DNA from: a virus
DNA: 64,000 nucleotides
Direction: 5' to 3' (one strand)
IMG/VR virus record: IMGVR_UViG_3300041409_000610
Location: 91,348 to 155,347 of that record
The stretch's first letter is position 1; every line of letters begins with the position of its first letter. The notes beneath the pieces were generated by a model. The model ran no database searches, was not told the origin of the DNA, and saw only the letters and a program-made list of their open reading frames with translations. Position numbers and translations under genes: made by a program. This document shows positions 693-51,600 of the stretch, in pieces.

Positions 693-757
693 TGGACACT
701 ACCCGGATAGGTAGTGTAGAGTTCCTCATGTCAGCACGGAACGAGCCGCACCGGAGG
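693..757 (+). promoter_or_regulatory. Palindromic promoter plus SD-hairpin leader (copy 1)
   Basis: -35 TGGACA (693-698), 18-nt spacer, -10 TAGAGT (717-722). The spacer holds the inverted repeat ACACTACC-6 nt-GGTAGTGT (696-717). The leader CCGCACCGGAGG (746-757) is flanked by G and C, which can pair, and precedes the ATG at 763. Confidence 0.7.
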
Positions 758-762
758 CCACG

Positions 763-1656
763 ATGACCACCTCGATCGCCCGCCATGATGTCCACACCGC
801 CGCTCACGTCAACTTCGACCCGGCCGACTACAAGTTCATCGGCGTGCTGGACACCGACACCAGCCCGTTCCGTGCCGACGACAGCCGGGGCCGCAAGGCG
901 GTCCGCGCGATGGAGACCGAGGGCTTCCCCTACGTGCTCGTCCACCCGCACTACCAGTGCGACGCCTGCGGCCAGCACCTGCGCTACGTCGCGGTCCTCT
1001 TCCACCACCCGTCGAACGCGCTGGTCGAGGTCGGTCTGAACTGCCTCGTCGGCCGCTTCGCGATGGCCAAGGACGAGGTCAAGCGGATGATGGCCGAGGC
1101 CAAGGCCGCCCGCGAGGCGCACAAGCTGCTGGACGGCTTCCTGGCCGCCTGCGACGCCTACCAGGACCTTGCCTACGCCACCTACGCCTGGAACATCGAG
1201 GCTGCCGCTCCCGCCGGTGCGGACATCTGGGGCGTTGGCCCGCTCGCCGACATCGCCCACAAGGCTCGCCAGTACGGCGGCGACGTCTCCGTGAAGCAGC
1301 TGGCCTTCGTGAGCCGGATCCTGACCCAGCTCGACGAGCGCTTCGCCGAGCAGGAGCAGCGCAACGCGGAGATCGCGGCGGTCAAGAGCGACGCCGGTCC
1401 GGCCCCCGAGGGCCGCGTGGTGATCGAGGGCACCGTGACCAAGCTGGACACCCGGGACAACGACTTCACCGGCGGCATCCGCATGGTGATGACCGTGACC
1501 CTGGACAACGGCGCCCGGGTCTGGGGCACCGTCCCGGCCGCGATCGCCGACGTCGAGCAGGGCACCCGGGTGGCCTTCACCGCCACCTTCGAGCAGGCCT
1601 CGGACGACGAGACCTTCGCCTACTTCAAGCGGCCCGCCAAGGCCGTCATCCGCTGA
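763..1656 (+). CDS. Putative zinc/OB-fold protein (297 aa)
   Basis: ATG at 763 sits five bases after the conserved leader GGAGG. The N-terminal half has a zinc-knuckle-like cluster (CDACGQHLRY near residue 66, then GLNCL near 89). Residues 155-210 are helical. The C-terminal 75 residues (GRVVIEGTVTKLDTRD onward) look like a small beta-barrel of the OB type, inferred from alternating beta pattern only. A nucleic-acid-binding role is possible but unproven. First gene of the unit led by copy 1 of the palindromic promoter. Confidence 0.85.
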   Translation: MTTSIARHDVHTAAHVNFDPADYKFIGVLDTDTSPFRADDSRGRKAVRAMETEGFPYVLVHPHYQCDACGQHLRYVAVLFHHPSNALVEVGLNCLVGRFAMAKDEVKRMMAEAKAAREAHKLLDGFLAACDAYQDLAYATYAWNIEAAAPAGADIWGVGPLADIAHKARQYGGDVSVKQLAFVSRILTQLDERFAEQEQRNAEIAAVKSDAGPAPEGRVVIEGTVTKLDTRDNDFTGGIRMVMTVTLDNGARVWGTVPAAIADVEQGTRVAFTATFEQASDDETFAYFKRPAKAVIR

Positions 1657-1663
1657 GACAACC

Positions 1664-1691
1664 GGCGGGGGCTCCCGGTGGAGCCCCCGCC
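1664..1691 (+). terminator. GC hairpin between genes
   Basis: 12-bp perfect stem (1664-1675 with 1680-1691) with a CGGT loop. It has no T tract and ends only 5 bases before the AAAGGAG of the next gene, so it may act as an attenuator or processing site rather than a full terminator. Confidence 0.5.
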
Positions 1692-1706
1692 AGAAAGGAG
1701 TCCGCA

Positions 1707-1895
1707 ATGGACCCCAATGCTGCACTGGCCGAAATCCGCAGGCTGAACGAGGAGCACGCCAACTACGGCGAACTGAGCGCGGGGAAAACCGCGCGCCTCA
1801 TCGAGCTGGTCGAGGGGCTGGACAACTGGCTCTCCGGCAACGGCTTCCTGCCGGAAGCCTGGGCGGGCGGACACAGTCAGGCTGGTGACTTCTGA
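1707..1895 (+). CDS. Small hypothetical protein (62 aa)
   Basis: ATG at 1707 with AAAGGAG ten bases upstream. Helical N-terminal half (AALAEIRRLNEEHANYGEL). Its TGA shares a base with the next ATG (TGATG), suggesting translational coupling. No known family recognised. Confidence 0.8.
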   Translation: MDPNAALAEIRRLNEEHANYGELSAGKTARLIELVEGLDNWLSGNGFLPEAWAGGHSQAGDF

Positions 1896-2203
1896 TGACC
1901 GACGAATTCGGCGACTGGGACCCGGCCGCCAAGGCACACCAGCACAACCCCGATCCGCTGGACATGCTCGACGAGTACCGCGCGATGACCGTGATCACGG
2001 TGTTGCGTCCGGCGGGCCACTTCTGCTGGGAGATCACCCGGCCGAGTAACGGCAAGCGGATGGCCAGCCCGAACTTCGACTACGTCGCGGCCGAGGCGCT
2101 GCGCGAGGTCCGCCGGGCCGGGGGCAACGCCATCGTGATCTACGACGACCAGAACGGCATCGAGGCCCGCCTACGGGCGCAGCAGGACAAGGAGGGTGAG
2201 TGA
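1895..2203 (+). CDS. Hypothetical protein (102 aa)
   Basis: ATG at 1895 overlaps the preceding stop. Alpha/beta composition, with a short strand-helix segment NAIVIYDDQNGIEARLRAQ at the C-terminus. Function unknown; it sits mid-operon. Confidence 0.8.
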   Translation: MTDEFGDWDPAAKAHQHNPDPLDMLDEYRAMTVITVLRPAGHFCWEITRPSNGKRMASPNFDYVAAEALREVRRAGGNAIVIYDDQNGIEARLRAQQDKEGE

Positions 2204-2205
2204 TC

Positions 2206-2514
2206 ATGGACGTCGAGCTGACCGAGCGGCTCATGGCCGCCTACCAGTTCCTCACTCCGGCACTGGGCAACCCACAGCCGCTGGCGGACATCCGCCTGCA
2301 CCTGCGCGACGTGGAGCCGCACCGGCTGAACCCGCTCTTGCGCGAGCTGAACGGCTCTGTGGTGCCCTTCTGGTTCCCCGACAATGACCGCCAGCAGCAG
2401 GGCGTCTTGAGCCTGCACGAGGCCGCTCAGGACGCGCCGTGGCGTGAGCTGGACGACGGGGTCGAGATCGACGGCATCACCTACACGCACATGGCGGTGC
2501 AGCCCAGCGGTTGA
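2206..2514 (+). CDS. Hypothetical protein (102 aa)
   Basis: I chose ATG 2206 over the in-frame GTG 2200 because GGAGGG (2191-2196) is then 9 bases away. The junction is TGATCATG, an 8-mer reused at ten gene junctions in this window. Soluble, no recognised motif. Ends just before promoter copy 2. Confidence 0.8.
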   Translation: MDVELTERLMAAYQFLTPALGNPQPLADIRLHLRDVEPHRLNPLLRELNGSVVPFWFPDNDRQQQGVLSLHEAAQDAPWRELDDGVEIDGITYTHMAVQPSG

Positions 2515-2573
2515 CACTACCCGAACGGGTAGGGTAGGGTCGTCCTTGTCAGCACGAAGGCCCGCACCGGAGG
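2511..2573 (+). promoter_or_regulatory. Palindromic promoter plus leader (copy 2)
   Basis: -35 TTGACA (2511-2516), palindrome CTACCCGAACGGGTAG (2517-2532), -10 TAGGGT (2535-2540; 18-nt spacer). Leader CCGCACCGGAGG at 2562-2573. The -35 overlaps the stop of the upstream gene. Confidence 0.75.
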
Positions 2574-2581
2574 AGCCCACC

Positions 2582-50703: not shown

Positions 50704-50744
50704 CGAACGTAGAAGTACCCCCGACTCAGAGGAAAGAGAACGAC

Positions 50745-51017
50745 ATGAGCACGACCGAGCACCGTCCGCTGACGGTGAAGGAGGACGAGGTCTTCCGGCT
50801 GGTGGCCGTCGGCCTGACGAACGAACAGATCTCCGGTCACATCGAGACCGGCGTCGACAACGTGAAGTCGCACATCCGCAGCATCTTCGGGAAGGTCGGC
50901 GCGAACAGCCGAACCCAAGCCGTGAGCCTCGGCTTCCGGAAGGGGCTACTGGACAAGGCGGACATCGACGAACTCGCCGTGAGCCTCGACAAGAGCCCCG
51001 TGATCGTCGAGGACTGA
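50745..51017 (+). CDS. LuxR/GerE-type HTH regulator (90 aa)
   Basis: ATG 50745 with GAGGAAAGAG upstream. PLTVKEDEVFRLVAVGLTNE (residues 8-27), then QISGHIETGVDNVKSHIRSI and AQAV-type GLL end match the four-helix GerE domain (LT-E-EV--LVA-GL-N--IA--L--S--TVK-H). No receiver domain. Such domains bind DNA dyads as dimers, so this is the best local candidate to recognise the dispersed palindromes; untested. Confidence 0.88.
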   Translation: MSTTEHRPLTVKEDEVFRLVAVGLTNEQISGHIETGVDNVKSHIRSIFGKVGANSRTQAVSLGFRKGLLDKADIDELAVSLDKSPVIVED

Positions 51018-51050
51018 CAGTCACCGGCTGACGAGCGAGGGGTGCTTCAC

Positions 51051-51080
51051 GATCCCCGGGAGAGTGATCTCCCGGGGATC
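51051..51080 (+). terminator. Terminator after the LuxR-type gene
   Basis: 13-bp perfect stem (51051-51063 with 51068-51080), GTGA loop; promoter copy 29 begins three bases later. Confidence 0.7.
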
Positions 51081-51082
51081 GC

Positions 51083-51138
51083 TTGCACTACACGTTCGGG
51101 TAGTCTAAAGTGATCAGTACGACAGACCGCACAGGAGG
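51083..51138 (+). promoter_or_regulatory. Palindromic promoter plus leader (copy 29)
   Basis: -35 TTGCAC (51083-51088), 17-nt spacer, -10 TAAAGT (51106-51111), palindrome CTACACGTTCGGGTAG (51088-51103, one mismatch). Leader CCGCACAGGAGG 51127-51138 in GACC...GGTC, followed by GTG 51146. Confidence 0.72.
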
Positions 51139-51212
51139 TCCGACTGTGATCAAGCTCGCAGTCGCATCGCAATGTGTGGACCCATCCCCTCGTCAACCTG
51201 GAGCCGAGGATC

Positions 51213-51458
51213 ATGACCGACACACTGCTGGACTCGGGTCGCCCGAGATCATTTCTCTGCGCCGTCGCCGCCGGACGCGCGATGCTGACCGTGAGCAGCG
51301 AGCCCGATCTGTTCATCGACGGCCTGAGCTGCGGAGATCAGCCGCTGGCCCATCAGCTGGCCCACCGAGGCCTGCTCGCCCCGGACCACATCGCGGCCCT
51401 CGGCGAACGCGTCCCCGCGATGCTGACCGCCGCCGGACTGGCCGCGCTCGGCCGCTAG
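51213..51458 (+). CDS. Hypothetical protein (81 aa)
   Basis: ATG 51213 with GAGGATC upstream. MTDTLLDSGRPRSFLCAVAA, then helical (HQLAHRGLLAPDHIAALGER). The conserved leader points instead to GTG 51146, which opens a different frame running as Arg-rich sequence to 51526; I regard the present frame as the gene because of its normal composition, and the GTG frame as a short leader or artefact. Confidence 0.7.
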   Translation: MTDTLLDSGRPRSFLCAVAAGRAMLTVSSEPDLFIDGLSCGDQPLAHQLAHRGLLAPDHIAALGERVPAMLTAAGLAALGR

Positions 51459-51473
51459 CCGCCCCGAAGCCCC

Positions 51474-51548
51474 GGACGGAGGGTCCCCGACACTCGCCGT
51501 CCGGTCAGAACGAGCCCTCACGGTAACCCCGAGCCGTGGGGGCTCGTT
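51474..51548 (+). terminator. Double hairpin terminator
   Basis: CGGACGG/CCGTCCG hairpin (51474-51504 region), then AACGAGCCC/GGGCTCGTT (51509-51517 with 51540-51548) containing CACGG/CCGTG, followed by CATC. Confidence 0.6.
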
Positions 51549-51588
51549 CATCACCTGAGAACGTTCGACAGGCTCTGCACCGGAAGAG

Positions 51589-51600
51589 CCGCACAGGAGG
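51589..51600 (+). promoter_or_regulatory. SD leader without palindrome (rightmost copy)
   Basis: CCGCACAGGAGG, seven bases before ATG 51608; flanks G/A. Last copy seen; none occurs in the virion module. Confidence 0.5.

Follow-up and report, generated by a model that had tools for sequence, protein, structure and literature searches.

Many gene starts in the window analysed here (the whole stretch of 64,000 nucleotides, from an uncultivated actinobacterial phage) carry a common sequence around the Shine-Dalgarno motif GGAGG. Is this a shared RNA structure, and what might it control? The strict pattern CC[AG]CA[CT]NGGAGG occurs 31 times in the 64-kb window, in all 31 cases on the + strand and never on the - strand (Table 1). 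A start codon lies just downstream in 30 of these copies, at a distance of 4-9 bases (15 for copy 15207), bearing out the original prediction of about 32 motif-bearing gene starts; copy 38905 is the only one without a clear start codon. A looser pattern (up to 2 mismatches) gave 77 matches in the window versus 38 expected, a number reached in 0 of 100 shuffles. The window holds part of the set, with 45 strict copies on the whole phage contig (155,347 b) and further copies on related IMG/VR contigs. Thus, the dispersed start-associated element is real and stronger than first claimed. Among 127 start-associated copies from the phage and its relatives, the spacing to the start codon is mostly 4-10 bases. 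The structural arm, within which the tail genes map, has no copy among 57 called genes, as against 43 copies for the remaining 168 genes.

Table 1. Copies of the start-associated element in the window, and one example of the upstream promoter.
Feature	Closing position and outer pairs	Position	Strand	Start codon	Remark
Start hairpin	G:C	744..759	+	ATG 763	
Start hairpin	C-A mismatch	2560..2575	+	ATG 2582	
Start hairpin	G:C	3055..3070	+	ATG 3074	
Start hairpin	A:T plus G:C	5051..5066	+	ATG 5070	
Start hairpin	A:T plus G:C	5391..5406	+	ATG 5413	
Start hairpin	G:C	6108..6123	+	ATG 6127	
Start hairpin	G:C	7172..7187	+	ATG 7191	
Start hairpin	A:T plus G:C	7928..7943	+	ATG 7951	
Start hairpin	G:C	9495..9510	+	GTG 9516	
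Start hairpin	C-A mismatch, outer C:G	11942..11957	+	ATG 11964	
Start hairpin	C:G	15205..15220	+	TTG 15234	Gene for ParB-like protein
Start hairpin	A:T plus G:C	18496..18511	+	ATG 18515	
Start hairpin	G:C	18849..18864	+	ATG 18868	
Start hairpin	T:A	22012..22027	+	ATG 22034	-10 box ends 8 bases 5' of CC
Start hairpin	A:T plus G:C	23568..23583	+	ATG 23587	
Promoter example		26946..26969	+		Inverted repeat CTACTC-n4-GGGTAG over -10 box TAGTGT, 5' of hairpin 26985
Start hairpin	A:T plus G:C	26983..26998	+	ATG 27002	
Start hairpin	A:T plus G:C	30405..30420	+	ATG 30426	
Start hairpin	T:A plus G:C	32235..32250	+	ATG 32253	
Start hairpin	A-A mismatch, two outer C:G pairs	33386..33401	+	ATG 33407	
Start hairpin	G:C	34281..34296	+	ATG 34300	
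Start hairpin	C-A mismatch	36157..36172	+	GTG 36179	
Copy without assigned start codon		38903..38918	+		
Start hairpin	T:A plus T:A	41135..41150	+	ATG 41155	
Start hairpin	A:T plus C:G	43003..43018	+	ATG 43025	Short ORF directly 5' of tRNA genes
Start hairpin	C-C mismatch, outer C:G	44634..44649	+	ATG 44653	
Start hairpin	A:T plus G:C	45074..45089	+	ATG 45093	
Start hairpin	C-A mismatch	45434..45449	+	ATG 45454	Gene for second ParB-like protein
Start hairpin	G:C	47414..47429	+	ATG 47437	
Start hairpin	C-A mismatch, outer C:G	50096..50111	+	ATG 50118	
Start hairpin	A:T plus G:C	51125..51140	+	GTG 51146	
Copy	G-A	51587..51602	+	ATG 51608	

The consensus is CCGCACNGGAGG, with free flanks. It had been predicted that the flanking bases covary by pairing. 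The count of 23 Watson-Crick closing pairs in 31 window copies was exact (8.0 expected), as were all the examples cited (G-C at 746, 3057 and 6110; A-T at 5053, 7930 and 23570; T-A at 22014, 32237 and 41137; C-G at 15207), and the next pair outward also matched often (16/31; 8.5 expected). For an independent set, we reduced the 127 start-associated copies to 59 leaders, one per ortholog or flank-similarity cluster. The closing pair (-1/+13) was Watson-Crick in 42 of these 59 (14.9 expected) and the next pair outward (-2/+14) was formed in 30 (14.3 expected). Where the closing pair was absent, in about a quarter of leaders, the next position was paired in over half. The covariation score for both outer pairs (n = 59) was 0.596, compared with 0.136 after shuffling, and none of 500 shuffles scored as high; slid registers of the same leaders gave at most 0.147. 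Among all column pairs, -1/+13 had the highest mutual information (z 31). The closing-pair excess recurred genome by genome (observed/copies, expected in brackets): 34/45 (12.0) in G000, 22/32 (8.9) in G002, 14/19 (8.0) in G001 and 13/16 (5.0) in G010 and G012 combined. Other GGAGG starts showed no excess of pairing (9/34), and relatives lacking the motif gave no pairing signal. Comparison of orthologous genes revealed compensatory switches, with 7 double switches and 4 cases involving a G-U form. Together, the two covarying pairs, the flat controls and the switches between orthologs identify the element as an RNA hairpin under selection, with a stem of 3-4 bp and the loop GCACNGGA. The proposed stem of 3-5 bp stands at 3-4 bp. 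A fifth base pair was rejected, because the third outer pair showed no significant covariation (17/59 versus 12.6 expected). We also discarded an alternative stem using the first GG of GGAGG, whose outward partner would be an invariant A, leaving the covariation unexplained.

Two other origins of the matched flanks were considered, both of them highly improbable. Many leaders are similar, the largest cluster comprising 28 copies, as would be expected if a leader cassette had spread by copy-and-paste and the covariation were a founder effect from few ancestral copies. However, reducing each ortholog or flank-similarity cluster to a single copy leaves the signal in place, it arises separately in G001 (median protein identity 43%), and orthologs switch pairs. 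Alternatively, the motif might be a palindromic DNA operator for a protein dimer, with flank pairing a by-product of half-site symmetry. A palindromic repeat does exist upstream, in the promoter, but the interior of the motif is asymmetric, its copies lie on the coding strand at a fixed 4-10 bases 5' of starts, and all four pair types plus G-U are seen, while DNA-binding proteins read base identity. The matched base changes show that the RNA fold is under selection: what precedes dozens of non-structural genes in this phage and its relatives is a tiny RNA hairpin holding the ribosome-binding sequence.

The stem consists of two invariant C-G pairs plus one or two pairs of free sequence, and encloses an 8-nt loop. 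Loop residues C4, A5, G8, G9 and A10 are invariant, G3 and C6 are conserved to at least 90%, and position 7 varies between C, T and A. A fold like 16S helix 45, suggested by a likeness of CCGCACCGGAGG to what we take to be the actinobacterial helix 45 strand CCGUACCGGAAGG, was dropped on account of the variable position 7 and a different covarying register. GGAGG is divided, with GGA in the loop and the last GG in the stem. The two outer pairs trade off: the position beyond is left unpaired in 17 of the 18 leaders closed by G:C, whereas 19 of the 24 closed by A:T pair there as well (Fisher 1.6e-6). Stem strength thus looks tuned. The stability of the paired forms amounts to about -3 to -5 kcal/mol; the median predicted hairpin occupancy in the mRNA context from -12 to +50 is 0.23. 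That the hairpin "hides" the Shine-Dalgarno sequence is therefore overstated, as only the last GG is paired, GGA remains in the loop and predicted occupancy is modest. The same data bear on an RNA switch or thermometer, in which the Shine-Dalgarno sequence would be sequestered until temperature or another signal opened it. Although part of GGAGG is paired and the outer pairs look tuned, the unpaired GGA, the stem of 3-4 bp and the low predicted occupancy make this very unlikely. Nor would a conserved loop be expected, since to our knowledge the thermometers described so far do not need one of this kind.

Many copies are preceded by a SigA-like promoter with an inverted repeat, CTACCC-n4-GGGTAG, that spans the spacer and the -10 box. 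G.GTANNNT is present in 69 leaders, 46 of which have a -35 element at 16-18 spacing (39 at 17). Wherever a promoter can be recognised in G000, 8-27 bases, and never fewer than 8, separate the end of the -10 box from CC, placing the hairpin near the mRNA 5' end; for copy 22014, at the lower limit, the predicted transcript start falls about at the stem. G001 has the motif and lacks the promoter repeat, and hence the two elements can be separated. For several copies no promoter is recognisable (41137, for example, sits right behind an upstream TGA), and these may be operon-internal. The promoter with its repeat, the fixed loop bases beyond the Shine-Dalgarno sequence, the outer-pair trade-off and the confinement to non-structural genes all go beyond the original prediction.

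The 5'-proximal position and the limited stem strength are what one would expect of a purely cis-acting device: a weak hairpin at the 5' end would keep other folds away from the start region, tune the initiation rate and shield mRNAs with short leaders from decay at that end, with no dedicated reader. We regard this as rather unlikely. It leaves unexplained the invariant or nearly invariant G3, C4, A5 and C6 outside the Shine-Dalgarno sequence as well as the restriction to non-structural genes, and sits poorly with the perhaps operon-internal copies. A conserved loop on a stem kept for structure only is the signature of an element read by a trans-acting factor, and selection on the fold suggests that synthesis of the proteins is under common control. 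From the observed pairing, loop conservation, placement, gene class and outer-pair trade-off, we infer that the element is probably read in trans, although ribosome contacts alone could account for the loop conservation. On balance we favour a translation-initiation hairpin of non-structural genes, recognised by a trans-acting factor that controls the whole gene set together. Located in the 5' leader immediately before the start codon, it would act at initiation; the reader might be an RNA-binding protein, encoded by phage or host, or a ribosome altered by the phage, and would raise or repress initiation across the set at once. The apparently limited stem strength would allow the ribosome to open the hairpin.

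A search for the reader by phyletic pattern (present in G000, G001 and G002; absent from G019 and G020, two relatives without the motif) did not find it. Seven candidate genes emerged, either uninformative or DNA-binding (ParB-like). The two ParB-like paralogs were rejected as not specific, since 88 records spread over many phage groups contain this family; the other candidates scanned had no informative Pfam match, one matching DUF6011 only. The portal protein is closest to those of Gordonia/Rhodococcus phages of 135-143 kb and 155-kb mycobacteriophages (37-41% identity), which places the phage outside cluster K (Weiservirinae). Searching a 36-base consensus against 50,697 phage records returned weak matches and no element-rich record, and over their full length the records of RedWattleHog, Finch, E3 and Kashi_SSH1 contain 0-1 copies. 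A host origin was dismissed: the A:T form had 6 single matches in 84,980 bacterial and archaeal genomes, in unrelated taxa and at about chance level. In an Rfam 15 scan of the window, only tRNAs exceeded the gathering score.

Among known systems, CsrA/RsmA sites and MS2-type coat protein operators are loop-specific, stem-permissive hairpins overlapping the ribosome-binding site, as the present element would be. CsrA also reads GGA in a loop, with the consensus A-N-GGA in a hexaloop; the loop GCACNGGA does not fit this, reading A-C-N-GGA, and A5 and C6 vary little or not at all. A non-exhaustive search found no CsrA-like or coat-type reader. T4 RegA is similar in that a single phage factor competes with the ribosome at about 30 mRNA start regions, but its sites are A+U-rich and unstructured at the AUG (PMC3014915), in contrast to the G+C-rich, covarying hairpins with a fixed loop described here. 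If there is such a reader, actinobacteria would have a new phage regulator of translation, and it would supply a compact orthogonal part for controlling translation.

The closest parallel is the start-associated sequence (SAS) of cluster K mycobacteriophages, a comparison the original prediction aptly drew: placement is alike and sequence unrelated. SAS have been known since 2011 and, in the portions of the reports consulted, extend beyond the ribosome-binding site with their function left open; those portions propose no RNA hairpin (PMC3203893, PMC12699233). SAS are short repeats with more than 10 copies per genome, lie 3-9 bases 5' of starts in one orientation, mainly at ATG and non-structural genes, are conserved past the Shine-Dalgarno sequence and have outer symmetry, GGG-N7-CCC around AGGAG (PMC3203893, PMC12699233). 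The present element shares the copy number above ten, placement, single orientation, preference for ATG, gene class, conservation past the Shine-Dalgarno sequence and outer symmetry, but not the 13-bp SAS consensus GGGATAGGAGCCC (up to 2 mismatches) or the phage group. A hairpin of 3 bp with a 7-nt loop would fit SAS. However, GGG/CCC is nearly invariant there, so that pairing is hardly testable: 102 copies from six phages gave a slight excess at the third pair only and one clean T-A switch. Here the flanks vary freely and the pairing is kept, so that nature has run the covariation experiment that the fixed GGG/CCC of cluster K precludes, and the hypothesis that start-associated elements are RNA hairpins becomes open to direct testing. 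The likeness extends to the extended SAS (ESAS), a SigA-like promoter just 5' of SAS that has its -35 and -10 boxes spaced by 17-18 bp and carries an imperfect inverted repeat (PMC11373665). Such a promoter also lies directly upstream here, though its repeat does not follow the cluster K consensus of 17-bp imperfect repeats, instead crossing the spacer and -10 box and being absent from G001. More tentatively, a phage-wide translational regulon is plausible, in which one trans-acting factor or phage-altered ribosome reads one loop on a stability-tuned hairpin at about 45 starts; cluster K SAS would be an independent instance of the design, and start hairpin plus inverted-repeat promoter a recurrent means of controlling non-structural genes in actinobacterial phages. 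The layout of promoter and hairpin is very like that of SAS and ESAS, in unrelated sequence.

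The window contains 31 copies of the strict motif, CC[AG]CA[CT]NGGAGG, always on the + strand; G000, the whole 155,347-b IMG/VR phage contig in which the window spans bases 91,348-155,347, contains 45. In IMG/VR, relatives with the motif include IMGVR_UViG_3300036773_000146 (G002; 32 copies), IMGVR_UViG_3300049259_000204 (G022; 22), IMGVR_UViG_3300036772_000367 (G001; 19), IMGVR_UViG_3300049982_000268 (G010; 12) and IMGVR_UViG_3300036793_000157 (G012; 4), with 1-2 copies in short contigs. Proteins of G001 and G002 have median identities of 43% and 56%, respectively, to those of G000, and thus the motif-bearing set covers real divergence. 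As a start element the motif was not found in the relatives G019 and G020 or in the whole records of four named distant relatives, and matches in bacterial genomes and a phage collection were only at about chance level. The G000 portal protein shares 37-41% identity with Gordonia and Rhodococcus phages (135-143 kb) and 155-kb mycobacteriophages, which marks G000, by sequence, as a large uncultivated phage of actinobacterial type. A tail sheath gene at 16-18 kb implies a contractile tail.

The base before CC and the base after the last GG (closing pair, columns -1/+13) had been counted as paired in 23 of 31 window copies; this count is exact, against 8.0 expected. Among 113 copies, the closing pair was Watson-Crick in 84 (32.2 expected) and the next pair out (-2/+14) in 62 (30.7 expected), with pairs further out at chance level. 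Of all pairs of columns between 20 bases upstream and 12 bases downstream, the closing pair had the highest mutual information. To allow for the kinship of dispersed copies and orthologs, we collapsed 127 start-associated copies into 59 clusters by downstream-protein orthology and upstream flank similarity. The closing pair was Watson-Crick in 42 clusters (14.9 expected) and the next pair in 30 (14.3 expected); closing-position types were G-C (16), A-T (15), T-A (9), C-G (2) and G-T (3). An independent count gave these two pairs a covariation score of 0.596 versus 0.136 shuffled (0/500 shuffles as high), and slid registers scored ≤0.147. Orthologous genes switch pairs: G:C at G000 68325 versus A:T at G002 73125, G:C at G000 72988 versus A:T at G001 154273, T:A at G001 119258 versus G:C at G002 95757, and T:A at G002 49834 versus A:T at G022 16482. 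G-T intermediates were also seen. As controls, other GGAGG starts paired at chance level in G000 (9/34) and without clear excess in the remaining genomes.

The data support the structure N N C C [G C A C N G G A] G G N' N', with the loop bracketed. All 59 clusters share C4, A5 and G8-A10 in the loop, an invariance partly built in by a search pattern that demands C4, A5 and GGAGG; G3 and C6 reach ≥90%. Position 7 is C, T or A (G in 0/127 copies). A search of the window allowing ≤2 mismatches revealed no other common form. Most motif copies lie 4-10 bases from the start codon, which was ATG in 83/105 copies of the first set. By heuristic gene calls, 0/57 genes carry the hairpin in the structural arm of G000 (including tail sheath, minor tail and portal genes), and the remaining 168 include 43 hairpin starts. 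The hairpin-carrying genes scanned encode mostly proteins of unknown function.

Coordinates of features in the window, G000 and G020
Feature	Record	Position	Remark
ParB-like paralog (phrog_5931)	window	15234-16043	start hairpin
ParB-like paralog (phrog_5931)	window	45454-46275	start hairpin
Peptidase M50 family protein	window	22625-23506	
Palindrome CTACCC-n4-GGGTAG	window	26946-26969	across spacer and -10; about 38 sites in G000
Gene with partial-length match to GmrSD_N	window	27002-27583	start hairpin
tRNA-Phe, tRNA-Trp, tRNA-Lys cluster	window	43146-43662	just 3' of short start-hairpin ORF at 43025
FtsK/SpoIIIE-like protein, 900 aa	G000	80676-83378	strand opposite to most genes
Four C-rich leaders CCCCCACGGAGGA	G020	77276-87959	immediately upstream of starts

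Two hairpin-less relatives have other sequences before starts. G019 (IMGVR_UViG_3300041409_000066) carries about 15 copies of GTC-N16-YCCTGTGAAGGGGTGAG, every one on the same strand, shortly upstream of starts, in pattern another dispersed promoter or leader element. The G020 leaders may represent a divergent start element.

Where the closing pair was G:C or C:G, 17/18 clusters left the next position unpaired; where it was A:T or T:A, 19/24 paired there (Fisher 1.6e-6, in a test framed after the data were seen). Clusters mismatched at the closing position paired at the next in 8/14. The G:C class, like many members of the A:T plus G:C class, has a predicted hairpin energy of ~-4.7 kcal/mol. 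Since the test is post hoc and some A:T members are weaker (about -2.8), a 'tuned' stem strength is a reading, not a proof. The 20-mer minimum energy averaged -4.71 versus -3.41 with shuffled 3' flanks, and predicted hairpin probability in the -12 to +50 context averaged 0.34 (median 0.23) versus 0.06 with shuffled flanks. The modelled hairpin is thus selected yet marginal. At a median probability of 0.23 it cannot simply keep the Shine-Dalgarno sequence locked up, so the original reading that it hides this sequence goes too far.

Many copies lie downstream of a SigA-like promoter whose -10 box (TAGTGT, TAGGGT or TAGTAT) sits in the right arm of the inverted repeat CTACCC-n4-GGGTAG. The -10 signature is present in 69 leaders; 46 of these also have a -35 at a spacing of 16-18, most often 17 (39 leaders). 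In G000 the distance from the end of the -10 box to CC is 8-27 bases, which would place the hairpin close to the mRNA 5' end. The two elements are separable, since G001 has the hairpin without the repeat and a few repeats lack a strict hairpin downstream. Palindrome sites are dispersed across the non-structural region, and outer arm positions match above chance. The palindrome is probably an operator or activator site; the ParB-like paralogs are possible binders.

A fixed loop and a pairing-only stem, placed at the start codons of many genes of one class, are features to be expected if a putative trans-acting reader recognises the element to control translation. Reading by the ribosome only is possible, but leaves G3-C6 unexplained. 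A literature search, covering few subscription papers, found no covariation-supported start hairpin of this kind.

The closest parallel is with the Start-Associated Sequences (SAS) and extended SAS promoters (ESAS) of cluster K mycobacteriophages. Pope et al. remarked on the outer symmetry of SAS and left its function open. GGG/CCC is almost invariant in 102 start-associated SAS copies from six cluster K phages, so that covariation is hardly testable there. A single copy in the cluster K phage Kratio, TGG-ATAGGAG-CCA, shows compensation at an outer pair, as would fit SAS being a hairpin. SAS/ESAS (PMC3203893, PMC11373665) resemble our element in layout, placement, gene class and inverted-repeat promoter, but differ in sequence and phage lineage; the hairpin is therefore not a member of SAS/ESAS.
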